NCBI GenBank assembly: GCA_029861425.1
Contig: JAOTZH010000019.1
Coordinates: forward strand, 1-33,470
DNA length: 33,470 nt
Source of the DNA: Gemmatimonadota bacterium
Lineage (GTDB): Bacteria; Gemmatimonadota; Gemmatimonadetes; Palauibacterales; Palauibacteraceae
Direction of reading: 5' to 3'
Under the pieces are notes generated by a model. The model saw only the letters and a list, made by a program, of their open reading frames with translations. It was not told where the DNA came from and searched no databases. The position numbers were made by a program, and so were the translations under genes. Below are positions 5,371 to 19,086 of the stretch, piece by piece. Position 1 is the stretch's first letter; each line of letters starts with the position of its first letter.

Positions 5371-5401
5371 ACGAGCCCTGTTGCATCCTCGGGAGACGTC
5401 C

Positions 5402-7303
5402 GTGAGCCAACGCCGACCTCCGATTCGGCCCCGACGGGTGGTCTTCGCCACCCTCGCCGCGATTTTGTCGGTCGGGCTGTCGGCCCCGCTGACGGCGCAG
5501 GACCCCGTGGGTCTGCCGGCCGGAGGCGCGACCGACGACGGATCGATGGGGCGCGTCGTCGTCGTTCTGATCGACGGAGCCACGGCCGCCCCGATCTCCG
5601 AAGCTCTCGTCAGCCTCGACGCGCTGGGGCGACGAACGCTCTCCGATTCGGCGGGCACCGCCGTCTTTCTCGACGTCCCGCCCGGAGCGTACACGCTCCG
5701 CTTCCGGCACATCGCCTATGGTGAGCAGACCGCTCTGGTCGAGGTGGAGGGGATGACGAGCGCGATCATCGGAGTGCAGCTCGACCCGAGAGCCATAGCC
5801 GTCGCGCCGCTCGAAGTGCTCATCGAGCAGCGACCCCGATACCTCGAGAATCAGGGCTTCTACGATCGGCGGGCCGTCGGGATGGGGTCGTTCTTCGACC
5901 CGTTGTTCGTCGAACGGTGGGGCCAGGGCGCGGCGGCTTCGGCTGACCGGTTCATCAAGCTGCTGGTCGACATGTCTCCCCAGCTGGCGAGCATGACCGG
6001 CACGACGGCCAGCAACGGAAACGCGTGGGAGGCGAGCATCGGGGGCGGGTTCACCGGTCAGTGTCCCGCCATATACATCGACGGCCAGAGGGCGTTCAAT
6101 GATCCGGGACTGAACGGTCGCGCAAGCCGGGAACTCGACATGCTCTCCACGTATACGCTCGGCGCGGTCGAGATATACGCCAGCTCACACGGGGTACCGG
6201 ACTTCGCTCTGGAGCCGACCGTCGGGTGCGGCTCGATCGTCATCTGGACCAACCGGTGGCGGGGACGCACCCGCAAGGTGGGCGGAGCCGACGTCGAGCT
6301 CTGCGAGCCGGCCAACATGGATTTCGTCCAGATCGAGGGCGACATCCGTGATGAATACACGGGCGTCCTGCTCCCCGGCGCACATGTCGTTGCGACGACC
6401 TATGCGGCCGCCGACCCGGAATCGCTGAAATCGCGAGAGATCATTGCCGACCAGCACGGGCGGTATCGGGTGTGCGACGTTCCCCCGGATCACCTTCTGA
6501 CGCTGCAGGTGGCTGCCGCCGACCGCACCGGGCCCGAGTTCCAGGTCCCGGTCGACGACGGACGCATCCTGCAGCGCGACCTTTCGCTCCGTGTGGCCGG
6601 GCCCGGCAAGGTGGTCGGCCGGGTGCTGGACCGCGCCACAGGCGCGCCCGTGGCTACGGCCAGCGTGGGCGTCGTCGGCATGACCCGGCGGACGCAGACG
6701 GACGATCAGGGCTATTTCGTGATGGACGAGGTGCTGCCGGGCGATCACGTCGTCGAGATCGAGCACCTCGGGTTCGAGCCGATCGCGGAGGTGGTGTCGA
6801 TCGTCGCGGACCGAACGGTCGACCTCAACGTCCACATGAGCGCCGATCCGATCGAGCTCGAGCCGCTGGTGGTCACTGCTGTCCGTGACCGTCGACTCGA
6901 GATCCGCGGGTTCTACGAGAGACGCACCTGGGGAGACCGGACCGGCCTGGGCGAGTTCCTCGGGAGCGAGGACATCGAGCGTCGCAGTCCGGCGGCCGTC
7001 ACCAACCTCTTGAGAGAGATGTCCGGCGTTGAGCTGCGATGCTCGGGCTCACGCGATTGCGTGGTCCAGTCGTCGAGGGCAGCGGGCTGCTCCACGATGA
7101 ACATCTACATCAACGGAACGCTGACGATCGGAGAGAATCGCGCCTCCGGAGCCGGGCCGCGCGGCTCTCGCATTACTGTGGACGAGCTCGTTCGCCCGTC
7201 CGAGGTCGCCGGCATGGAGGTGTACGCCGGCGGAGCGACCGTCCCCGCTGAGTTCAGCGGTCTGACCGGCCGCTGCGGCGCGATCGCGATCTGGACGAAG
7301 TGA
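5402..7303 (+). CDS. Secreted protein with CnaB-like repeats and two TonB-plug-like modules, no beta-barrel
   Basis: A 633-residue exported protein with a signal peptide (RRVVFATLAAILSVGLS, then TAQ near residue 33). Its order is: CnaB/carboxypeptidase-regulatory-like domain (about 52-127), plug-like module A (134-286), two more CnaB-like domains (305-397 and 402-480), and plug-like module B (486-633). Modules A and B share a plan: RGFYERR or QGFYDRR near the start, C-x4-IYIDG or C-x4-IYING, and a closing CGSIVIW or CGAIAIW. Each has a matching Cys pair (C221/C276 and C563/C625), suggesting disulfides outside the cytoplasm. There is no C-terminal barrel, so it is not an ordinary receptor. I chose GTG 5402, with GGGAG six bases upstream, over TTG 5381. 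Function unknown. Confidence 0.8.
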   Translation: MSQRRPPIRPRRVVFATLAAILSVGLSAPLTAQDPVGLPAGGATDDGSMGRVVVVLIDGATAAPISEALVSLDALGRRTLSDSAGTAVFLDVPPGAYTLRFRHIAYGEQTALVEVEGMTSAIIGVQLDPRAIAVAPLEVLIEQRPRYLENQGFYDRRAVGMGSFFDPLFVERWGQGAAASADRFIKLLVDMSPQLASMTGTTASNGNAWEASIGGGFTGQCPAIYIDGQRAFNDPGLNGRASRELDMLSTYTLGAVEIYASSHGVPDFALEPTVGCGSIVIWTNRWRGRTRKVGGADVELCEPANMDFVQIEGDIRDEYTGVLLPGAHVVATTYAAADPESLKSREIIADQHGRYRVCDVPPDHLLTLQVAAADRTGPEFQVPVDDGRILQRDLSLRVAGPGKVVGRVLDRATGAPVATASVGVVGMTRRTQTDDQGYFVMDEVLPGDHVVEIEHLGFEPIAEVVSIVADRTVDLNVHMSADPIELEPLVVTAVRDRRLEIRGFYERRTWGDRTGLGEFLGSEDIERRSPAAVTNLLREMSGVELRCSGSRDCVVQSSRAAGCSTMNIYINGTLTIGENRASGAGPRGSRITVDELVRPSEVAGMEVYAGGATVPAEFSGLTGRCGAIAIWTK

Positions 7304-8609: not shown

Positions 8610-9269
8610 CTACGCGTCCTTCTCTTTGATCGCCTTGTCGATATCGCTCTTGAGGATGCGGCCTTCCTTGCCGCTCCCTTCGATGGTGGCGAGATCGATT
8701 CCGTTGGCCGTCGCCAGCTCGAGCGCGGCGGGCGTGATGTCGTAGTCGCCGTCTGAAGCATCCTCGACCGGGGCGTCCCCGACTTGGGCCGCGGCTTCCG
8801 TAGCCGTCTCTTCCGCGGCCTCGACCACCGTCTCCTCGGCGACGTCGGCCACGGTCGCTTCCGCGGAGGCCTCGACGACTTCCTCGACCACCGGCTCGTC
8901 GGCTACGGCTTCCTCCACCACCGGAGCGGCCTTCTTGATGGGCTGTTTCTTCCCCTTCGGAAAGGAGATCTCGACAATCTTGATCTCGGTGTAGCCCTGC
9001 CGGTGACCCTGCTTTTTCCGGTAGCCTTTCCGGCGCTTCATCTTGTACACGACGATCTTCTCGCCACGCCCGTGGCCGACGATCTCCGCCGCTACCGCGG
9101 CTCCGTCGAGCGACGGCGTACCGACGCGAATGTCCCCATCCTTCTCCGCGAGCAGGACCTCGTCGAACGTCACCTTGTCGCCAGGCTCGGCGTTCAGCGT
9201 CGGGATCCGAAGCGTCGCCTCGGGATCCGCGCGGAACTGCTTCCCCTGAGCCCGAAAAATCGCGTACAT
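8610..9269 (-). CDS. rplU: 50S ribosomal protein L21 with acidic linker and C-terminal E3-binding-like domain
   Basis: Residues 1-105 are a normal L21 ([12 protein letters not shown] at the start, [16 protein letters not shown] near 76-91, EIKIVEI at the end), which binds 23S rRNA in the large subunit. The protein then runs on to 219 residues, about twice the usual length. Residues 113-176 are a low-complexity linker rich in Ala, Val and Glu. Residues 177-216 ([16 protein letters not shown], then [18 protein letters not shown]) look like the peripheral-subunit-binding (E3_binding) fold of 2-oxoacid dehydrogenase E2 subunits, with its typical GxGxxGRIxKxDI pattern. No frameshift is needed. L21 is certain; the tail assignment is by motif only. 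It is transcribed from a strong promoter at 9314-9342, followed by rpmA. Confidence 0.96.
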
Positions 9270-9313
9270 GCGTCTATCTCGATCCCGGTTGTTCCGAAAA
9301 TTGCCAGCCGAAA

Positions 9314-9342
9314 ATGATAGGTTTGGGCGTACCGGGTGTCAA
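9314..9342 (-). promoter_or_regulatory. Sigma-70-type promoter for rplU-rpmA
   Basis: On the minus strand, TTGACA (9342-9337) and TATCAT (9319-9314) are separated by exactly 17 bp, giving a full-consensus -35 and a five-of-six -10. Predicted transcription starts near 9307, about 38 nt before the L21 start codon. The ribosomal pair can therefore be transcribed without rng. Confidence 0.8.
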
Positions 9343-9399
9343 TGTGGCGGAGATGTCGAAGACGGCCGCGTCGCGGGGCCGCGGCATGCCCCGAAGGAC

Positions 9400-10947
9400 C
9401 TAGGTCGTCACGTACTTGGCGGTGACATCCGTGTCCGCCGGGTGGGCGAGCAGGCGGAACTCGTCGAGCCCGAGCAGGGGGTCGTCTCGCACGTCGAGAT
9501 CGAGATTCAGATCCGCCCCCAGTCCGCTCAGGAACCTGGGTTCGTTCTCGAGCAGGTGAAGGGCGATCACGGGGTGCGTCAGGATCGTGATGCCGCGCTC
9601 CCTGCCGGCACGGGACACGCGGGTGAGAGCCCTCTCGATCCGGCGAACGACCGTCTCGGGTGCCAGAATCCGGCCCGTTCCCTCACAGTACGGACACGGT
9701 CCCGTCATGCGCTGATCGAGGCTGGGGCTGACTCGCTGCCGGCTCATCTGGAGCAGGCCCAGCTCCGAGATCGTGAAGATCTTCGTGCGCGCGCGGTCGC
9801 GGCCTATGTGCGCGCGCATCTGCTGGACGACCTTGTTCCGCGACGCCTCCTCGTCCATGTCGATGAAGTCGATGACGATGATTCCGCCGACGTCGCGCAG
9901 TCTCAGCTGCCGAGCGATCTCGACGGCCGCATCCAGGTTCGTCCGGAGAATCGTCTGCTTCGGGTCCTTCCGACCCGTGTAGCGACCGGTATTCACGTCG
10001 ATGGATACGAGTGCCTCGGTCTGCTCGATCACGACGTGTCCGCCAGACGGCAGATCGACCTTGCGGCTGAAGGCCTTCCGGATCTCCTCCTCGATCCCGA
10101 ACTCGTCGAAGATCGGCGCCTCGCCTGCGTACAGCTCCACGCGATCCAGCAGGTCGGGATCGACCGTGCCGAGGTACGATTTGATCTCGTGGTGCATCTC
10201 CGTCGAGTCCACGGTGAGCTTGTCGATCTGGTCGCTGAACACGTCTCGGATGATCCCGGAGGTGAGGCGGGCGTCCTGGTACACGACCGCCGGGGGCTTC
10301 ACCCCCTGCTGCCGCTTCTGGATCTTCTCCCAGGACTTCCTCAGGGTCTTGAGCTCTCGATCGAGCCCCTTCTGCGTCAGTTCCTCGCCGACGGTCCGAA
10401 CGATCACGCCCCCATCGCTCTCCTTGAGCATCTGCCGGACCATCTTCTTCAGGCGGCCCCGCTCCTCGCGGTCCTCGATCTTTCGACTGACCCCGACGTG
10501 TGTGCTGGTGGGCATGTACACGAGGAAGCGGCCGGGCAGCGAGACCTGGCTCGTGACCCGGGCCCCCTTCGTGCCGATCGGCTCCTTCGTCACCTGCACG
10601 AGGATCGGTTGGCCCTTCTGCAGGACGTCCTGGATGGGGGGGTAGGTCCTGTCGCGGCGGCGGCCGCGGCCTCTTCCCCTCCCGTTGCCGGCTTGCCCGT
10701 TCTCGTCATCCTCGTCCTCGTCGGACACGAGATCGGAGGCGTGGAGGAAGGCGGCTTTCTCCGCGCCGATGTCGATGAAGGCGGCCTGGAGACCCGGCAC
10801 GATCGCCTCTACGACACCGAGGTACATGTCGCCGACGATCCGCCGCTCGTCGGGGCGCTCGTGCATGAGCTCGACGAGTCTCGAATCCTCGAGTATCGCG
10901 ACCCGCTTTTCGCGGGCTGTCGCGTGGACGACGATTTCCCGGCGCAC
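9400..10947 (-). CDS. rng: Ribonuclease G/E family endoribonuclease
   Basis: A 515-residue RNase G-type enzyme that cuts single-stranded, 5'-monophosphate RNA in mRNA decay and rRNA maturation. The S1-like domain (about 36-135) has GDMYLGVVEAIVPGLQAAF and AAFLHASDL. The catalytic core has D317 in SIDVNTG and D360 in VIDFIDM for Mg2+. C418-P-Y-C421-EGTG is the Zn-link of the family. The S1 domain holds an unusual charged insert at residues 75-100: an acidic run, then an RG-repeat and arginines. The long C-terminal scaffold of E. coli RNase E is absent. The start is GTG with GGAG upstream. The rng-rplU-rpmA neighbourhood is common in bacteria; 130 nt separate rng from rplU. Confidence 0.95.
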   Translation of the reverse strand: MRREIVVHATAREKRVAILEDSRLVELMHERPDERRIVGDMYLGVVEAIVPGLQAAFIDIGAEKAAFLHASDLVSDEDEDDENGQAGNGRGRGRGRRRDRTYPPIQDVLQKGQPILVQVTKEPIGTKGARVTSQVSLPGRFLVYMPTSTHVGVSRKIEDREERGRLKKMVRQMLKESDGGVIVRTVGEELTQKGLDRELKTLRKSWEKIQKRQQGVKPPAVVYQDARLTSGIIRDVFSDQIDKLTVDSTEMHHEIKSYLGTVDPDLLDRVELYAGEAPIFDEFGIEEEIRKAFSRKVDLPSGGHVVIEQTEALVSIDVNTGRYTGRKDPKQTILRTNLDAAVEIARQLRLRDVGGIIVIDFIDMDEEASRNKVVQQMRAHIGRDRARTKIFTISELGLLQMSRQRVSPSLDQRMTGPCPYCEGTGRILAPETVVRRIERALTRVSRAGRERGITILTHPVIALHLLENEPRFLSGLGADLNLDLDVRDDPLLGLDEFRLLAHPADTDVTAKYVTT

Positions 10948-11101
10948 GCTACTCCGCGTGTTCCGAGCCGCCGTCCACTGTCGGGGCCGTTAGGATGCTT
11001 CGCACCTGTGCGGACGAGGTATTTGTCAGGCTCACCCGCAGGACGGATGACCCTCCGAAAGAGCTGGGTCCTGTTACAGAGTGTGTCGGTGATCGTCACA
11101 A

Positions 11102-11125
11102 ACGCCCGACTTCACTGGCGGGCGT
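11102..11125 (-). terminator. Candidate hairpin terminator after the acyl-CoA dehydrogenase
   Basis: ACGCCCG (11102-11108) pairs with CGGGCGT (11119-11125) around a 10-base loop, 75 bp past the acyl-CoA dehydrogenase stop. On the minus strand the stem is followed only by TTGTGA, so the U-tail is poor. The 252-bp gap (10948-11199) otherwise shows only a weak promoter-like pair for rng: TTGTGA (11101-11096) and TGTAAC (11078-11073), 17 bp apart. Confidence 0.4.
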
Positions 11126-11199
11126 CTGAAGTTAGGGCATTCCAATCCCAGTCGGAAAGGAGCAACTGCGGTTCAGCCGCGACCACACGGAACTCGGGC

Positions 11200-12423
11200 T
11201 CAGCCCTGGCCGTGCTCCTTCAGAAGCTCCCTCGAGATGACCATCTTCTGGATCTCCGAGGTTCCTTCCCCGATCTCGGTGATCTTGGCGTCTCGCATCA
11301 TGCGCTCGACCGGATACTCGCGGGAATACCCGTACCCCCCGTGAAGCTGCACGGCCCGCGTGGTCACGTCCATCGCCGCCTCGGAAGCGAAGAGCTTTGC
11401 CATGGACGCTTCCTTCTTGTAGGGCTTCCCGGCCATGCGAAGACGCGCGGCGTGATAGGTCATGACCCGGGCCGCGTGGATGCTCGTATCCATTTCGGCG
11501 AGCATGAATCTCACGCCCTGGAAATCGTTGATCTTCCTGCCGAACTGCTCGCGCTCGCCCGTATAGCGGACGGCTTCATCGAGCGCGCCCTGAGCAATCC
11601 CGATCGCGTGGGCGGCGATGCCGATCCGGCCACCGTCGAGCGTATCGAGGAATATCGGGAACCCTTCGTCGATTTCCCCCAGCACGTTCGCATCCGGGAC
11701 CTCGACGTCCTCGAAGATCAGCTCCCGCGTGTCCGAAGCGTTCCAGCCGAGCTTGCGGAGCTTCTGGCCCACCTGAAAACCCGGCATCGCGTCGAGCTCA
11801 TCCGAATGCCCGAACCCGACTCTGGTCGCTTCTTCGAGGTCGCACGTCTCCTTGGTCAAGATGAAGACGGTGATCCCTTTCGCGCCTTTCTCGGGATCCG
11901 TTACGGCCCCGACGACAAAGATCTCGCCTACCCCACCGTGGGTGATCCAGGTTTTCTGGCCGTTGAGGACCCACCGGTCGCCCTTCTTCTCGGCGGTCGT
12001 TCGCATTGCCGCGGCATCGGAGCCGGAACCCGGCTCGGTCAGCCCGAAGCCGCCGAGCACCTGACCCGAGGCGAGCGGTGTCAGGAACCGCCGCTTCTGC
12101 TCCTCGGTCCCGAATCGAGCGATCGGGGTCGCGCAAAGAGACGTGTGGGCCCCGATCATGATCGAATGGCTGCCACAGACCCGAGCGAGCTCCTCCACGG
12201 CGATGGCGGACGCCAGGATGTCCATCCCGGCGCCGCCGAACTCCTCGTCGAACGGGATCCCGAAGAGGCCGATCTCGGCCATCTTCGCGCCGTTCTCCCA
12301 GGGAAACTGCTCCGATTCGTCGAATTCGCTCGCGACCGGGGCGATCTCGGCCACGGCGAACTCCCGGACCATCTCCCGGATCATCTCATGATGATCGTCG
12401 TAGAAAAGACTCAGGTCACCCAA
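11200..12423 (-). CDS. Acyl-CoA dehydrogenase
   Basis: A 407-residue FAD-dependent acyl-CoA dehydrogenase making trans-2-enoyl-CoA and passing electrons to ETF. The three-domain layout is intact: GLTEPGSGSDAAAMRT in the FAD/substrate middle domain, TGEREQFGRKINDFQ, and the C-terminal HGGYGYSREYPVER and EGTSEIQ. E386 sits where the catalytic base of short/medium-chain enzymes lies. The middle domain has an insert of about 15-20 residues (around CDLEEATRVGFGHSDELDA) relative to typical SCAD. Chain-length preference cannot be fixed; short or branched chains are plausible. The start appears to be TTG at 12423 with GGGGG shortly upstream, as no ATG or GTG is in frame there. It is divergent from the sigma factor gene. 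Confidence 0.92.
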   Translation of the reverse strand: MGDLSLFYDDHHEMIREMVREFAVAEIAPVASEFDESEQFPWENGAKMAEIGLFGIPFDEEFGGAGMDILASAIAVEELARVCGSHSIMIGAHTSLCATPIARFGTEEQKRRFLTPLASGQVLGGFGLTEPGSGSDAAAMRTTAEKKGDRWVLNGQKTWITHGGVGEIFVVGAVTDPEKGAKGITVFILTKETCDLEEATRVGFGHSDELDAMPGFQVGQKLRKLGWNASDTRELIFEDVEVPDANVLGEIDEGFPIFLDTLDGGRIGIAAHAIGIAQGALDEAVRYTGEREQFGRKINDFQGVRFMLAEMDTSIHAARVMTYHAARLRMAGKPYKKEASMAKLFASEAAMDVTTRAVQLHGGYGYSREYPVERMMRDAKITEIGEGTSEIQKMVISRELLKEHGQG

Positions 12424-12439
12424 GAGACCCCCGCCATCC

Positions 12440-12467
12440 TTTGTATTTGGCTCAATTGGATTGTCAA
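12440..12467 (-). promoter_or_regulatory. Probable sigma-70 promoter for the acyl-CoA dehydrogenase
   Basis: On the minus strand, TTGACA (12467-12462) and TACAAA (12445-12440) are 16 bp apart, in a locally AT-richer patch. The predicted start is only about 10 nt before the TTG start codon, so the leader would be very short. The rest of the 222-bp divergent gap shows no clear promoter for the sigma gene. Confidence 0.55.
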
Positions 12468-12645
12468 AGTTCCAAGCGGTAACGTATCGGGGACGGCATT
12501 CGCATCAAAACACCGCGCCGGCGATCTGGCGCCGTGGTGAACCGCCTGTGCGGGACCGTCACGATCGGGCCGGGACGGGCGTTCTGGTTTGGGTTTCGGA
12601 GGTCCGCGGCGCTCGAACGCGCCGGCAGGCGTGGACGGGGGAATC

Positions 12646-13155
12646 GTGGACTTCGAGGCGGCATTCAACAGCCACCAGGAATCGCTGTTTCGGTACGTCA
12701 ACCGTTTGGTTGGCGACGCCGATCTCGCGTCGGACGTGGTGCAGGAGTCGTTCGTGAGGCTCCTGAGTCATCCGCTTCCCGACGACGAAGTACGACGATG
12801 GCTGTTCACGGTCGCCACGAACCTCGTTCGGGACGACGCCCGAATGAGGAGTCGAAGGCAGCGGTTGCTCGCCGAACGCTACGAGCGTTCGGATATGGCG
12901 AGCGATCCGGCCGATGTGCCCGACGAGGTCGCGATGCGGTCGGAGCAGATCGCGGCCGCTCGCGCGGCGCTGGAGCAGCTTTCGCCGAGAGATCGGCAGA
13001 TGCTGATGATGAGAGAGGAAGGGTTCCGGTACTCGGAGATCGCGAAGGTGATCGACGTCGCGCCGGGATCGGTCGGGACCTTGCTGGCCCGCGCATTGCG
13101 ACGATTCGCGGCAGCCGTGGACCCGGCGCACATAGATGATGAGGAGTCGGAGTGA
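12646..13155 (+). CDS. ECF-type RNA polymerase sigma factor
   Basis: A 169-residue extracytoplasmic-function sigma factor with only regions 2 and 4. Region 2 runs from HQESLFRYVNRL through DVVQESFVRLL to RRWLFTVATNLVRDDARMRSRR. Region 4 includes LSPRDRQMLMMREEGFRYSEIA and a helix-turn-helix ending RALRRFAA. I chose GTG 12646 (VDFEAAF) with GGGGGA just upstream; longer starts add a Gly/Pro-rich leader with no family match. It is followed directly by an anti-sigma factor and then a TonB-dependent receptor, so its regulon probably includes these genes. The signal is unknown. Confidence 0.92.
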   Translation: MDFEAAFNSHQESLFRYVNRLVGDADLASDVVQESFVRLLSHPLPDDEVRRWLFTVATNLVRDDARMRSRRQRLLAERYERSDMASDPADVPDEVAMRSEQIAAARAALEQLSPRDRQMLMMREEGFRYSEIAKVIDVAPGSVGTLLARALRRFAAAVDPAHIDDEESE

Positions 13156-13157
13156 AC

Positions 13158-13916
13158 ATGCACGCAGCTGACGGCATCCACGTCGACGACGGCGCTCTTC
13201 TCGCGCTGATCGACGGCGAGTCGGCGCCCGGAGCGGAGCCCCGGACGCACGTCGACTCGTGCGATGACTGTGCACGGCGAATGGAAGAGCTGCGTTTCGC
13301 GAGCCGACGGCTGGCTGGCGCGCTCGAGTCCGTGGACACCCCGTCGCCTCTGACGGAGATGCCGGACGAGCTTCGCGATGCGGCCGCGGCGGCGGTGACT
13401 CCGATCCACTCGGCCTGGCGCCGTCGGCTCAGGGGCGGGCGATCCGTCGCGGCCGCCGCCGGTCTGATCCTCGTACTGGCGGCCGGCGCTTATGCGGTGC
13501 CCGGGTCCCCGCTGCGCTCGATCGTGTCACGTTCGGTGGACGCGCTGGGATCCCTCTTCGGTGGCGACACGGTCGGACCGATCGATCCGGGGCCCTCCGC
13601 GGTAGGGGTCGATCCAGTCGACGGAGCCGTCACCGTGTCGATCGAGGGCGCCACCGACGACCTGCGCGTGACCATCCGTCTGGTGGATACCTCGCGCGCC
13701 TCGGTCTCGGCGCGTGGCGCGAGCTTCGTCGGCCAGCCCGGTCGCCTGCGGGTGACCGATGCGGCGGGCGACATGACGGTCGAACTCCCAACCGCGGCCG
13801 AGGGAACCGTCGAGGTCAACGGCGCCCCCGTGGCTCGCTCGACCGGAGGGGCGATCACACGACTGCCCGGGGCGGATCTCGTTCCGGCGGTGATCGTCGT
13901 CGAGACAGCCGGGTAG
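13158..13916 (+). CDS. Zinc-finger anti-sigma factor, membrane-anchored
   Basis: A 252-residue single-pass membrane protein that should hold the adjacent sigma factor inactive. The N-terminal cytoplasmic domain has the ZAS zinc motif H31-x3-C35-x2-C38 (THVDSCDDC). A hydrophobic segment (SVAAAAGLILVLAAGAYA) follows at about residue 100. The periplasmic part (about 150-252) is beta-rich, with adhesin-like repeats such as VTVSIEGATDDLRV. I prefer ATG 13158 with CGGAG five bases upstream; GTG 13152 overlaps the sigma stop codon as GTGA and also has GAGGAG at good spacing. Translational coupling is likely either way. Confidence 0.85.
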   Translation: MHAADGIHVDDGALLALIDGESAPGAEPRTHVDSCDDCARRMEELRFASRRLAGALESVDTPSPLTEMPDELRDAAAAAVTPIHSAWRRRLRGGRSVAAAAGLILVLAAGAYAVPGSPLRSIVSRSVDALGSLFGGDTVGPIDPGPSAVGVDPVDGAVTVSIEGATDDLRVTIRLVDTSRASVSARGASFVGQPGRLRVTDAAGDMTVELPTAAEGTVEVNGAPVARSTGGAITRLPGADLVPAVIVVETAG

Positions 13917-14021: not shown

Positions 14022-16253
14022 TTGGTTTCCGCATTTCTGGCAAGCGTGGTCGGCTTCGCGTCTCTCGGCGCGCTGCAGGACACGACCGGCACTCTCTACG
14101 GTCGCGTCCTCAGCGGCGATACCGGCACGCCCGTTGTCGGCGCCTCTGTCAGAATCCGTCACGGCGGAGCCTTTCGGCTCCTTGTCACCGACGACCGGGG
14201 CGCCTACCGGGCTGAGCGACTCATCGCCGGCGACGCGCTCGTGGTGGCACAAGCCCTGGATCACGCGCCGCTCGAGGCGGCTGTGAGGATCCCGGCCGGT
14301 GGCGAGGTGCCCCTGGATCTCGAGCTCGAGATTCGTCCAGTCGAGATGCCCATGTTGTTCAGCCTGGTCGAGGCATCCAAACTCACGCTGCCTCCGCCGG
14401 GGCTTGTACGAGGAGGTCTCCGCGAGGAGGGCGAGACGGAGCTTCGAGCGCTGGATCAGAGCCCCGGAGTCTCGGAGCTCGGGCTCGGCAGATGGCTGGG
14501 CCCGGATCCGTCCGACCCCACCAGCACGCTCTATGTCCGCGGCGCGGTCGCCGACCTGAAGCTCGTCGTTCTCGACGGGGCTCCCGTCTACGCCCCGTTT
14601 CACCTGAGCGGGTTGCTCGATGCCTTCCCCGACGGGGTTCTCGAGGATGCCACGATCTACGTGGGGGGGACCCCGGCTGAGTACGATGGCGGCCTCAGCT
14701 ACGTACTCGACCTGGAGGTCCGGGAAGGCGAGAGGGACCGGTTCCGCATGGCGGGCGCCGTGGATCTGCTCGGCGCCACCGGTCGAATCGAGGGCCCTAT
14801 CGGGAAGTCGGGGCGAGTGCTGCTCAGCGGACGTGGCCTGCACGGCGCCGGGTATCCCCTGCTCACCGGATCGGGCGAGCTGCCGTACGGGTACGGGGAC
14901 GCGCTCGGCCGTCTCGATTTCGGGATCGGCGGGGGGCACCTGTCGGCGACCGGCTTCTGGAACCGCGAGTCCGTCCTACTCGACATCGGGAAGCTGGAAG
15001 GCGCGGCCCCGGAGTCCGCCTACTGGGGCAACGGCGCCGGATCAGCCCGGTATGCGACCCCGTTTGCCGGCGGAACGCTCAACGTGAACACCTCGTTCGG
15101 GCGATTCACCACCCGGATCCCGGCGCTCGACCTCGAATCCGAAGGGCCGGTCGCCTTTACGACCGTCCGAGGCGAGACGTCACGTAGCCGGACGGGTGCC
15201 TCCTACGAGTTCGGCACCGGCGTCCGCTGGGAGATCGGTACGGGCTTCGACACGCACGAGACGGTGCTCGATCAACGAACGGTGTTCGGCGACACGACGA
15301 TCCACACGGTCGCGAACGCACAGGTCGGTGCGATCTGGGGCGAGGCGACCTGGAATCCGACACCCGAGGTCGAGGTCCGGGCGGGCCTGCGCAGCAGCTA
15401 CTTCAAGCCCGACGGCGTCGCGCGCTTCTCGCCCCGCGCCTCCGCGCTCTGGCACGTCGACGAGAGCGCGCGACTGAAGATTGCGGCCGGCCGCTTCCAT
15501 CAGGTGGTGCGCGGCCCCGAGACGATTCTCTCGGGTGACCTCACGGGACCCACGCTCGGGGGTGGCGGGCGACCACAGCTCGACCTCCCGGGGCCCATCA
15601 TCGGCTCGCAGCTCTTCGCGATCGCCGGCGCCACGCACCTCGTGCTCGGCCTCGAGAACGACCTGTCGAACGGGATTCAGATTGGCCTGGAGGGGTACTT
15701 CAAGTCGTTCGACGGCCTCCCCGAGGCCGAGGACCTGTACTCATCCGGTGCCGACCTGTGGCTGCAGGCCGACGAGGGGCCAGTGCGCGGCTGGCTCGGG
15801 TACTCTCTCGCCTGGGTCTGGGACAACCAGCCGGCACAGGCGACCCAGTTCGTTGGGCGTCAGCTGCTCAGCGGGGGTCTGGCCACGGCCCTCGGTGGAG
15901 TCGACGTCGGCCTGCGTCTCGCCTACGGTGCCGGCCTCCCCTTCCAGGAGGTCACGCCGGTCGGGGAGGGAGCCCCGCGAAACCCCCGACGCGACGCCGG
16001 CGATGCGCCGCCTCCAGCGCTGTCCGGAGCCCCGGACGATTCGTACCTGAGGATCGACGCCGAGATCTCCCGTCGCTGGGTGGGGCGGATCGGGAACCGG
16101 TCGTTCGAGATCGCGCCCTACGTGCGGTTGTTGAACGCCCTCGACCGTCGGGACGCCCTCTTCTACCGCGCCGCGGAAGAGGGGCCGACCCGACCGATCC
16201 CGCTCTCGTCGGTTCCGGTCCTGGCCGTCGTCGGCATCGCCTGGACCTTCTGA
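14022..16253 (+). CDS. TonB-dependent outer-membrane receptor with CnaB-like N-terminal domain
   Basis: A 743-residue outer-membrane receptor. After a hydrophobic N-terminus (LASVVGFASLGAL) comes a carboxypeptidase-regulatory-like domain (about 23-110: TLYGRVLSGDTGTPVVGASV). A plug domain follows with LYVRGAVADLKLVVLDGAPV and YAPFHLSGLLDAF. The rest is a beta-barrel of alternating aromatic strands ending in VVGIAWTF, the terminal Phe expected for BAM-dependent insertion. The substrate is unknown. No STN signalling domain is seen, unlike FecA, although sigma and anti-sigma genes precede it. The start is probably TTG 14022, because an in-frame stop lies at 14001; the signal peptide then lacks basic residues, which is odd. 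Confidence 0.86.
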   Translation: MVSAFLASVVGFASLGALQDTTGTLYGRVLSGDTGTPVVGASVRIRHGGAFRLLVTDDRGAYRAERLIAGDALVVAQALDHAPLEAAVRIPAGGEVPLDLELEIRPVEMPMLFSLVEASKLTLPPPGLVRGGLREEGETELRALDQSPGVSELGLGRWLGPDPSDPTSTLYVRGAVADLKLVVLDGAPVYAPFHLSGLLDAFPDGVLEDATIYVGGTPAEYDGGLSYVLDLEVREGERDRFRMAGAVDLLGATGRIEGPIGKSGRVLLSGRGLHGAGYPLLTGSGELPYGYGDALGRLDFGIGGGHLSATGFWNRESVLLDIGKLEGAAPESAYWGNGAGSARYATPFAGGTLNVNTSFGRFTTRIPALDLESEGPVAFTTVRGETSRSRTGASYEFGTGVRWEIGTGFDTHETVLDQRTVFGDTTIHTVANAQVGAIWGEATWNPTPEVEVRAGLRSSYFKPDGVARFSPRASALWHVDESARLKIAAGRFHQVVRGPETILSGDLTGPTLGGGGRPQLDLPGPIIGSQLFAIAGATHLVLGLENDLSNGIQIGLEGYFKSFDGLPEAEDLYSSGADLWLQADEGPVRGWLGYSLAWVWDNQPAQATQFVGRQLLSGGLATALGGVDVGLRLAYGAGLPFQEVTPVGEGAPRNPRRDAGDAPPPALSGAPDDSYLRIDAEISRRWVGRIGNRSFEIAPYVRLLNALDRRDALFYRAAEEGPTRPIPLSSVPVLAVVGIAWTF

Positions 16254-16380: not shown

Positions 16381-16893
16381 GTGAAGTTCCATAGAGAGAT
16401 GAGCGGGCGGACGGTCGCGCGACGGTTCGCGGCGCCAGCGTTCCTGCTGCTCTGCGTGGCGTGCGGACACGACCCGTTCGCGCTGTCCTCGGAGGCGGTG
16501 GAGGATCACCGAGCTCGCTGGCTCGCCGCCGGCATCGACGACTACGAATACGACTATCGGCGCCAGTGCGAGTGCCTGCCGACTGACACCCGGCCCGCGA
16601 GGGTGAGGGTCAGGGACGGGCGGGTCGCGACTGCGACGTACAGCGACTCGGGCGAGCTGGCGGGAAGCTTCGCGGCCTATCCGACGGTCGAGGAGCTGTT
16701 CGATCTCGTCGACGAAGCGATTGTCCGGGAGGCGGCCATGCTGGTCGTGTCCTACGACTCGCGACTGGGATACCCGACGAAAATCACGATCGATTACGAT
16801 CTTCAGGCAGCGGATGATGAACTCACGATCGAAGCTCACAACCTCGTTTCGGCACCGGACACCGGCGTTTTCCAGGATCTGGTGGCTCGCTAG
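16381..16893 (+). CDS. DUF6174-like exported protein, probable lipoprotein (copy 1)
   Basis: A 170-residue protein with basic N-terminus, hydrophobic stretch (FAAPAFLLLCVAC) and a weak lipobox ending at C28. The mature part has the pattern I associate with DUF6174: RARWLAAGIDDYEYDYRRQC followed by EC, TVEELFDLVDEAI, and YDSRLGYPTKITIDYD followed by an acidic tail (AADDELTIEA). The domain's role is unknown; it probably faces the periplasm. GTG 16381 has GAGG eight bases upstream; ATG 16399 is an alternative. It is closely related to the next gene, and its last 80 nt also encode that gene's N-terminus in another frame. Confidence 0.78.
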   Translation: MKFHREMSGRTVARRFAAPAFLLLCVACGHDPFALSSEAVEDHRARWLAAGIDDYEYDYRRQCECLPTDTRPARVRVRDGRVATATYSDSGELAGSFAAYPTVEELFDLVDEAIVREAAMLVVSYDSRLGYPTKITIDYDLQAADDELTIEAHNLVSAPDTGVFQDLVAR

Positions 16894-17320
16894 CCTGACG
16901 GTCCTGGTAAGCGGCTGTTCGGACCCGTTCGGCGTCGAACAGGACACGCTCGATCAGGCGCGGGCCCGCTGGGCGAGCCTGGGCGTGACCGACTACTCGT
17001 TCGAGTTACGGCGATCCTGCTTCTGCGGGCCGGACTTCACCCGACGGATCAGGATCGACGTCGAGAGCGGCTCGGTGATCGGGGCCGTCTACGTGGACGA
17101 CGGCCAGCCGGTGACGACGCCGCTCGGCGAGCTGTCCACGATCGAGGATCTGTTCGACGAGATCCAGAATGCGATCGACCGCGAGGCCTTCACCCTGCTC
17201 GCGGAGTACGAGCCTGTGTTCGGCCACCCGACCGAAGTCTCGATCGACTTCGACATCCAGATCGCGGACGAGGAGATGGCCTTCGACGTCAGGAACCTGG
17301 TGTTCGCGGTCGCGGGCTAG
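16814..17320 (+). CDS. DUF6174-like lipoprotein (copy 2), overlapping copy 1
   Basis: A 168-residue lipoprotein. Its signal peptide has a long basic N-region, a hydrophobic core and a good lipobox LVSGC, with C35 as the lipid-attachment residue. The mature part mirrors copy 1: DPFG after the Cys (DPFA in copy 1), RARWASLGVTDYSFELRRSC, TIEDLFDEIQNAI and FGHPTEVSIDFD followed by ADEE. Start codons are limited to ATG 16814 or 16817, as no other common start codon lies in frame between 16814 and the lipobox. The gene therefore begins 80 nt inside copy 1, in the +1 frame, and its signal peptide shares DNA with copy 1's C-terminus. It converges on the gene ending at 17326, with a 5-bp gap. Confidence 0.8.
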   Translation: MMNSRSKLTTSFRHRTPAFSRIWWLASLTVLVSGCSDPFGVEQDTLDQARARWASLGVTDYSFELRRSCFCGPDFTRRIRIDVESGSVIGAVYVDDGQPVTTPLGELSTIEDLFDEIQNAIDREAFTLLAEYEPVFGHPTEVSIDFDIQIADEEMAFDVRNLVFAVAG

Positions 17321-17694: not shown

Positions 17695-18993
17695 CTATCG
17701 ATCGCCAGGTGAGAAGAGCGGCCGAGCTGCCGGCAGATCATCGGGGATGGGATCGCCCACGATGATGCTCCTCGGCTCGGACTCGGTGAATCCCATGAAC
17801 CCGAAGCCCATCTCGTCGGTCGTGGGGCGCCCCCAGCGGACGGCCCGTGTGGCGTCCGGGTTCGACGGATTGTCGGCCGAGTTGTCCCAGCAGGCACGGA
17901 AGTAGATGTCGGTCCCCGCGGGCACCTCCAGCGGGTCCCTGAGCCAGTAGTCGTGTTGCCACTGGAAGTCGTACGCGGGCACGTCGAGCAGCGGCCGGAC
18001 CGTGCCGTCCGGCAGACGGGCCTCGTAGTAGGCGGACTTGCCCCGCAGGTGCATGTGCGGGTTAAAGCGGAGAATCTGCACGTCCCTCTCGAACGTGAAA
18101 TCACGATCGTAGCAGTAGTTCGGGGCGCCCGCGGGGATTTCGAATCGCCACAGTCCGAGCGATTCGCTCTCCATGACATGACGAATCTCTGCTCCCGGCT
18201 CGTAGAACTTGATGCCCGCCTCGGTCATGATCTCTTCGGCGCTCCCCGGGCCGGCTTCCTTGTGGTAGTGCATCTGGAACGTGACCGTCGTCCCCTTTCG
18301 GAGAAGCCGGCTGTAGCCATCCGGGTATTCCCGATGCTCGTAGCCGGGGGCAATCCCCCCGATCGGCCGCGCGATGATGTGGTGCACGGTCGGGCTCCCG
18401 GGGTGGAACTCCACGGCCTTGACCCAGCGATCCTCTGGCAGCAGCTCGGCCGGGATCTCGACTTCGATGTCGACGTACTCGTCTTCGACTTCGTCCAGAA
18501 CGAGATACGGCTCCGGAAAGCGGACGATGAGGTCGGGCTCGCCGATGGCCCAACCCCCGCTCCTCTCGGACTCGAAGATGCGTGCATCGGGCGCCTCGGC
18601 GGGATCGCCCTCGGGCGAGCCTGCGACTACCCAATCCCGTATCGTCGCCACCTCGGTCTCGCTGATGTACCGCTCGTTCGAGAAATGGCCGAGGAAATCC
18701 CCCGACGCGTGCCAGGGCGGCATGCGACCCGCCTCGAGCTGGAACACCATGAGCGGGCCCCACTCGCGGGTCTCCTCGTAGCTCGTGAACGACTGCGGGG
18801 CGACCATCCCGCCGAGGTCGAGACCGTTCTCCCGGTGACAGTCCTGACATCTCGACTGGAGAATGGGCAGGACGTCCGCGTGGTATGTCGGGGAGGCCGG
18901 CGAGTCGGCGCGAAACGCGAGCAGCGCGGCGCCGGCGACCAGCGGCACGGCGAGGATCGTGAGGACCTTCGTCCTCGTGACGCCTGCGGACAT
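17695..18993 (-). CDS. Cytochrome c / type II copper monooxygenase-like protein, exported
   Basis: A 432-residue periplasmic protein. After an N-terminal membrane signal (LTILAVPLVAGAALLAF) comes a cytochrome c-like domain with one heme motif C49-Q-D-C52-H53 and a likely distal Met in GRMPPWH. The larger C-terminal part has His clusters typical of the PHM/dopamine-beta-monooxygenase copper fold: HPGSPTVHHI, FQMHYH and NPHMHLRGK, plus a Met-rich stretch near the end. Such proteins are frequent and uncharacterised in Gemmatimonadota, Acidobacteria and Planctomycetes. The reaction is unknown; heme-fed copper oxidation is an inference. I chose ATG 18993 with AGGGGG five bases upstream; GTG 19011 would place that sequence inside the gene. 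Confidence 0.8.
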   Translation of the reverse strand: MSAGVTRTKVLTILAVPLVAGAALLAFRADSPASPTYHADVLPILQSRCQDCHRENGLDLGGMVAPQSFTSYEETREWGPLMVFQLEAGRMPPWHASGDFLGHFSNERYISETEVATIRDWVVAGSPEGDPAEAPDARIFESERSGGWAIGEPDLIVRFPEPYLVLDEVEDEYVDIEVEIPAELLPEDRWVKAVEFHPGSPTVHHIIARPIGGIAPGYEHREYPDGYSRLLRKGTTVTFQMHYHKEAGPGSAEEIMTEAGIKFYEPGAEIRHVMESESLGLWRFEIPAGAPNYCYDRDFTFERDVQILRFNPHMHLRGKSAYYEARLPDGTVRPLLDVPAYDFQWQHDYWLRDPLEVPAGTDIYFRACWDNSADNPSNPDATRAVRWGRPTTDEMGFGFMGFTESEPRSIIVGDPIPDDLPAARPLFSPGDR

Positions 18994-19086
18994 GGTTCCC
19001 CCTGTGGCCAAGCGAGATGGCGAGGTCGAAGAATAGAAGCCGCGGACCCGCGTGAGCCAGAGGACGCGTGCGACGCGACGATCGCG

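Follow-up and report, generated by a model that had tools for sequence, protein, structure and literature searches.

Long overlaps between adjacent genes on the same strand have a poor record of surviving scrutiny. Palleja et al. (2008; PMC2478687) report 715 annotated same-strand overlaps over 60 bp, none of which was judged real, the longest accepted overlap being the 56 bp one between holD and rimI of Enterobacteria; in the scheme of these authors, the class '5' and 3' extension' is read either as an error or as an overlap that is real yet unconserved. Long unidirectional overlaps in phase 1 are described by Fonseca et al. (2013) as originating via replacement of a start or stop codon, with no selection required, and overlap length is stated to differ even among close species (Huvet and Stumpf; PMC4161906). 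With respect to translation, PMC12548453 describes coupling that falls steeply with growing overlap, and in one study is absent at -25 nt; for the coat and lysis genes of phage MS2, which overlap by 50 nt (-50 nt), the explanation favored there is that the upstream ribosome unfolds the RNA. In searches of the open-licence PMC literature, no paper on overprinting of a lipoprotein signal in bacteria was recognized.

Here we analyze two genes for DUF6174 lipoproteins that overlap by 80 nt in a Gemmatimonadota bacterium of the family Palauibacteraceae (GCA_029861425.1); the window is the entire analyzed stretch, positions 1-33,470 of the forward strand of contig JAOTZH010000019.1. As in holD-rimI, both genes are on the same strand and the start of the downstream gene falls within the terminal part of the upstream one, but the holD-rimI overlap, as described, reaches at most 56 bp and is conserved across genera, whereas the one in the window is 80 nt long, is not conserved in the one sister species that has the pair, and joins paralogues. 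It belongs to the class '5' and 3' extension' of Palleja et al., the usual cause of which, a wrong start, is excluded in this case. With the long phase 1 class of Fonseca et al., the locus shares an overlap length that leaves a remainder of 2 when divided by 3 and a 3'-extended upstream gene; it differs in that two gene ends have moved, the 3' end of gene 1 as well as the 5' end of gene 2, and in that long phase 1 overlaps are less expected in a genome that is rich in GC. The MS2 case is similar in having a downstream start deep in the upstream gene, too far for plain reinitiation, but it is viral, strongly structured and coupled, whereas the start region in the window is unusually unstructured. 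Altogether, the overlap fits the accounts of Palleja et al., Fonseca et al., and Huvet and Stumpf as a long, unconserved example of a familiar kind.

Geometry of the overlap

Gene 1 (16381..16893; forward strand, as are all features given below) encodes a DUF6174 lipoprotein of 170 amino acids, with GTG as the start codon and an internal ATG at 16399 as a possible alternative. Gene 2 (16814..17320) encodes a second one, of 168 amino acids when counted from ATG 16814. The original prediction that these are related lipoproteins with the same domain holds: the Pfam profile PF19671 (DUF6174) matches the gene 1 and gene 2 products with E values of 2.6e-34 and 6.1e-34, and scores of 118.6 and 117.4 bits, respectively, against a curated cut-off of 23.8 bits. 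These two are the only DUF6174 copies in the whole assembly (3.85 Mb in 291 contigs). The genes share positions 16814..16893, with gene 2 in the +1 frame of gene 1, so that the first 26 codons of gene 2 and two bases of codon 27 are dual-coded. All three other same-strand pairs inspected in the window overlap by 4 nt, the usual length.

The original prediction also held that the usable start codons of gene 2, at 16814 and 16817, lie inside gene 1, and the scan of the gene 2 frame bears this out. Across positions 16690-16960, this frame contains only three ATG, GTG or TTG codons, namely TTG 16721, ATG 16814 and ATG 16817, and none was found between 16817 and the lipobox, so that the start of gene 2 must sit within gene 1. 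A later start at ATC 16877 was considered and rejected, because the resulting leader, inspected by eye, would have no basic residues. The gene 2 frame is intact, with a GC3 of 0.92 over the part that belongs to gene 2 alone, and all residues conserved in the family are retained in the alignment.

The predicted lipoprotein signal peptide of gene 2 spans 34 amino acids (16814..16915), of which residues 1-26 are encoded within gene 1, whereas the mature lipoprotein (16916..17317) is clear of it. By eye, the leader has a basic n-region, a hydrophobic core and a lipobox with its cysteine, VSGC (...IWWLASLTVLVSGC). As predicted at the outset, the dual-coded part of the leader consists of the basic stretch and a portion of the core, IWWLA; the segment SLTVLVSGC falls beyond the overlap. 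On the gene 1 side, the last beta strand of the model, E120-130 (16819..16851), is dual-coded with the first residues of gene 2, and the C-terminal tail past this strand (16852..16890), modeled with low confidence, with the gene 2 n-region and IWWLA. The leader of gene 1 itself ends in LLLCVAC and, also by eye, fits the expectations for a lipoprotein less well than that of gene 2; its lipobox, LCVAC (16456-16464), has a cysteine at -3, which is unusual, and may be processed less well than VSGC of gene 2.

A latent start codon in the Asp-Asp-Glu motif

The two start codons of gene 2, ATG ATG (16814..16819), come from the gene 1 codons GAT GAT GAA, which encode Asp-Asp-Glu. D118 and E120 of this motif are among the best conserved residues of the family, being present in at least 90% of 50 sequences, and whenever the second Asp is encoded by GAT, the string GAT-GA spells ATG in the +1 frame. 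The 50 sequences remained out of 61 domains after the removal of 11 with E values above 1e-24, which are absent both from the tree and from the parent set of the two alignments; the motif, composition and fold counts cover only homologues with the (x)DE motif, and the fold set lost one more, with a locus that was too short.

A latent ATG is present at the motif in 12 of the 48 motif-bearing homologues. Its frame closes within 21-117 nt in nine of these and remains open into an adjacent DUF6174 gene in the other three, which are the window, the corresponding pair in genome G004 of the same genus, and a pair in G226. In 28 of the 48 homologues, the +1 frame stays open for 20 codons, and 21 of these 28 have a net charge of 3 or more in this frame, so that a basic leader comes nearly free, without any need for selection. 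Given that both a latent ATG and an open +1 frame are common, an open overlapping frame alone proves little; what stands out against chance is the missing later start codon together with the drop in third-position GC upstream of the start (see below). The latent ATG codons of G004 and G226 were rejected as a sign of conservation, because G226 has a GTG past the gene 1 stop and the motif dictates the letters.

A broader reading would be that, in DUF6174 tandem arrays, the second lipoprotein is launched from a start hard-wired in the Asp-Asp-Glu motif of the first protein, with the window as the fully committed form (a dual-coded leader, a tuned internal start and the longest non-viral same-strand overlap without an alternative start), and G004 and G226, in which the same latent ATG is open into the second gene, as uncommitted forms; we regard this generalization as improbable.

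The junction in related genomes

The profile search for DUF6174 covered all 35 genomes of the family and 43 genomes of the order. Within the genus, the domain is found in 2 of 17 genomes, that of the window and G004. A search of contigs from related genomes yielded seven loci, one of which is the G004 pair, and a second draw at the class level gave mostly the same genomes. In G004, the pair is found in the same order, behind the same outer-membrane gene, with about 50% protein identity to the pair in the window.

The two junctions are built differently. Gene 1 of G004 stops 11 residues past the DDE motif, compared with 23 residues in the window, the third longest tail among 46 homologues, for which the median is 14 (two of the 48 bearing the motif are fused proteins and were not counted). 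Thus, gene 1 is extended too, by a tail of low model confidence, and one-way overprinting of gene 1 by gene 2, as originally envisaged, is not supported. Start codons for gene 2 of G004 are available at +31, +52 and +55 nt past the gene 1 stop; a latent ATG at -41 nt, in the position homologous to 16817, would give a 41-nt overlap. The distance from this latent ATG to the lipobox cysteine is 61 codons in G004 vs 33 in the window, which makes the G004 stretch longer by 28 codons (84 nt). The original prediction looked to related genomes for conservation of the overlap; in this orthologous pair, which is readable as two separate genes, with starts past an earlier gene 1 stop, it is not conserved.

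In most homologues, the start codon lies 12-24 residues before the lipobox cysteine, compared with 33-34 residues in gene 2 of the window, which supports a derived origin of the gene 2 start. The junction DNA of the window and G004 aligns no better than chance, with a local alignment at the mean of shuffled sequences (22.5 vs 23.7; 612 of 1000 shuffles were as good), and the MAFFT alignment of the junction broke down, so that in the alignment a deletion in the window looks the same as an insertion in G004. The typical start position and the shorter gene 1 tail of most homologues would nevertheless favor a loss in the window over a gain in G004.

Among the other pairs, gene 2 starts at -4 nt in G193; at -44 nt from the latent ATG or at +19 nt from a GTG preceded by AAGGA in G226; at +15 to +96 nt in G263; at +47 or +80 nt in G273; and at +77 nt in G197 if the ATG before the leader is taken, with GTG codons at +8 and +14. 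The -80 nt arrangement is thus seen in one of the seven two-gene pairs examined, out of at least seven that exist: each of the other six has a gene 2 start available at -4 nt or past the gene 1 stop, whereas the window has none. G175 and G223 contain two DUF6174 copies each that are too distant from each other to count as pairs. In G047 (L049:1907-2863) and G056 (L050:124-1293), both DUF6174 domains belong to a single lipoprotein, in which a helix is joined directly to a strand, without a second leader, hydrophobic core or lipobox between the domains. Tandem or fused copies of DUF6174 are found in at least a few genomes of the class.

Composition and probable initiation at the internal start

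The start of gene 2 is located in an AT-rich, weakly folded stretch (16781..16820) with a GC fraction of 0.45, compared with 0.67 for the window. Upstream of it, at 16805..16807, inspection by eye found the triplet AGG, a weak Shine-Dalgarno-like element 6 nt before ATG 16814. The duplex with the anti-Shine-Dalgarno sequence is weak, at -3.2 kcal/mol, compared with -7.0, -8.9, -6.1 and -5.9 kcal/mol, respectively, for the sigma, anti-sigma and outer-membrane genes of the operon and for the GTG of gene 1. At 98% of the positions in the locus, the predicted fold is stronger than around 16814. The drop in GC at the start site, -0.201 in gene 1 of the window, is the largest among 47 homologues, and the fold fraction is the fourth lowest of 47; since even less folding is seen in three homologues that have no downstream gene in register, the fold alone is not special.

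The codon-level signal is in the same direction. The 15 codons before the start that belong to gene 1 alone have a GC3 of 0.60 vs 0.854 in the rest of the gene (binomial p 0.015), the largest such drop among 48 homologues, with the next one at -0.161. Codons that end in A or T in the window and in G or C in G004 make up 8 of the 28 codons in the region, compared with 14 of 124 outside it (Fisher p 0.033); restricted to the 15 upstream codons, the same comparison with G004 gives 4 of 15, which is not significant (p 0.24). The composition and fold tests, few in number and chosen after the overlap was known, are suggestive of the inner start site being used. As termination-reinitiation does not reach back across 80 nt, gene 2 would be translated by direct initiation at the open site, perhaps aided by translation of gene 1.

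Origin of the pair and its operon

The pair follows genes for an ECF sigma factor (12589-13155), an anti-sigma factor (13152-13916) and a TonB-plug-like outer-membrane protein (14022-16253). The order of these three genes is retained in six relatives (L107, L108, L109, L110, L111 and L112), with no DUF6174 there, and in G013, a convergent gene homologous to 17695-19011 comes directly after the TonB-plug-like gene. Given that the operon exists in other congeners without DUF6174, the pair is either an addition to an older operon or a loss from it. None of the other DUF6174 genes checked is adjacent to these sigma, anti-sigma and TonB-plug-like genes. Two further observations concern the surroundings: a 1090-aa protein (9268-12540), with no Pfam or NCBIfam match, has a counterpart with 49% identity next to this operon in G004, and an ORF starting with TTG (5381-7303), which encodes carboxypeptidase-regulatory domains and, toward its end and shortly before the stop, a TonB plug, may represent a TonB receptor gene that is broken or frameshifted.

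The original prediction derived the two genes from a tandem duplication, a reading that the phylogeny neither bears out nor contradicts. In the tree of the 50 domains, gene 1 of the window groups with gene 1 of G004 (support 100/92), and gene 2 groups with gene 2 of G004 together with the single copies of G288 and G356 (93/80), a cluster nested in a larger one (88/85) that includes single copies from the family and order of the window. Gene 2 of the window is as near to single copies of other genomes as it is to gene 2 of G004, and is not sister to gene 1. However, the AU test does not reject a clade that unites all four proteins from both pairs (p 0.242), and a tree in which the two gene 2 proteins alone form a clade is more likely than the free tree recovered, so that the tree is weak on detail.

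Explanations for the overlap

In our assessment, the observations are probably best explained by a genuine -80 nt overlap of two DUF6174 lipoprotein genes, in which the loss of a spacer pushed gene 2 onto a latent ATG. Relative to the sister species, some 84 nt would have been lost at the junction. The loss would have taken the old stop of gene 1, which would then read on into the leader of gene 2 and gain a short tail, as well as the old start of gene 2, which would be launched from the latent ATG at 16814 or 16817. The n-region of gene 2 would now be drawn from the last strand and tail of gene 1, and most of its core, the lipobox and the body would be ancestral. Translation of gene 2 would probably proceed by direct or unfolding-assisted initiation at the open AT-rich site, with its weak Shine-Dalgarno sequence, and both products would be separate membrane-anchored lipoproteins with a small half-barrel.

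The concern that comes up most readily is an assembly artefact, with a spacer of tens of bases in the real genome and the genes separate as in G004. The G004 junction is indeed about 84 nt longer, the genome is split into 291 contigs, and long same-strand overlaps are mostly errors by the account of PMC2478687 cited above; moreover, the -80 nt state is known from one assembly, and the comparison rests on a single sister pair. A single-base indel, tried as the cause, fails. In frame 0, stops occur at 16815 and 16818 and next at 16896, and the gene 2 frame has none before the stop of gene 2 itself, so that gene 1 shifted to frame 0 would run to the later stop at 16896, and shifted to frame 2 would be fused to gene 2. 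As an indel would either lengthen the overlap or fuse the genes, no single one removes it, and a false overlap would require the loss of a block of sequence, which is possible in a fragmented assembly but would have to be a clean multi-base loss sparing both frames. Under this scenario, the AT-rich synonymous signature around the inner ATG would be unexpected as well, and we consider such an artefact unlikely. The original prediction had named separate or fused genes in relatives as signs of an artefact; both are seen, in G004 and in G047 and G056, respectively, and they count against conservation of the overlap but do not reveal a point error. A fused single protein was rejected as the true state of the window because the leader would be buried, whereas the true fusions have no leader there. 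For the same reason, a +1 frameshift joining genes 1 and 2 into a two-domain protein appears extremely improbable: despite the precedent of the fused homologues, the hydrophobic core and lipobox would be buried between domains where natural fusions have none, and no known shift motif was spotted by eye at the gene 1 stop.

The remaining explanations accept the sequence but interpret gene 2 differently. It might have lost its own start recently and be decaying, with little or no translation. The weak Shine-Dalgarno sequence and the lack of a start 12-32 residues before the lipobox, where most homologues examined have one, are compatible with such decay, but the frame is intact with the high GC3 reported above, the family-conserved residues are all kept and the start region is open, so that we give decay only a small chance. 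Less likely still is the original prediction in its strict form, that a fresh tandem copy without a start took its whole export signal by overprinting gene 1. The start, the n-region and five residues of the core do come from gene 1 DNA, and this part of the claim stands; in addition, no homology to the G004 leader is apparent in the DNA of the overlap tail, and, as noted, one clade of both pairs is not rejected. However, the overlap stops short of the lipobox, the mature domain and most of the core, gene 2 is as near to single copies of other genomes as to its G004 counterpart and is not sister to gene 1 in the tree, and the basic n-region is a default of the frame that needs no selection. 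Spacer loss, with a leader that is in part inherited and in part newly drawn from gene 1, thus remains the reading that we prefer.

Predicted fold and implications

The pair shares with other DUF6174 (PF19671) lipoproteins of the class the domain itself, the CxC and DDE/ADE motifs and the lipoprotein leader. The structural models are confident (pLDDT 94 for the mature part of gene 2 and 90 for gene 1) and consist of a helix, three strands, a helix and three strands. Both match mostly LolA, LolB, RseB/MucB, LprG/LprF and ependymin-like half-barrels, with best VIA Z scores of 7.0 and 6.7 over 115-120 residues at 3.9-4.3 A, where values below 8 are under the level trusted by the authors of the tool, and best Foldseek E values of 2.9e-3 and 1.1e-3. 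A profile of the 50 DUF6174 members had no match among PDB chains at E values up to 1, and neither protein had a match in NCBIfam; DUF6174 was not found mentioned in the open-licence PMC literature. Judging by the models, DUF6174 is possibly a small LolA/RseB-like half-barrel, but it is smaller than LolA, LolB, RseB and LprG, has no sequence match in PDB and perhaps is only alike in fold. In Escherichia coli, RseB is encoded beside a sigma/anti-sigma pair, and by analogy the sigma/anti-sigma neighborhood in the window is suggestive, although the other DUF6174 genes checked lack such neighbors, as noted above.

These findings overturn nothing that is already known. They provide an example where the sequence offers no alternative start, so that the use of long same-strand overlaps becomes testable, as does the way in which a ribosome starts 80 nt upstream of the preceding stop. 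They also outline a simple route to such an overlap, via codons of a conserved acidic motif that spell ATG in the next frame and a basic leader that is nearly free. For DUF6174, a family without a known function, the half-barrel match offers a lead to the fold.
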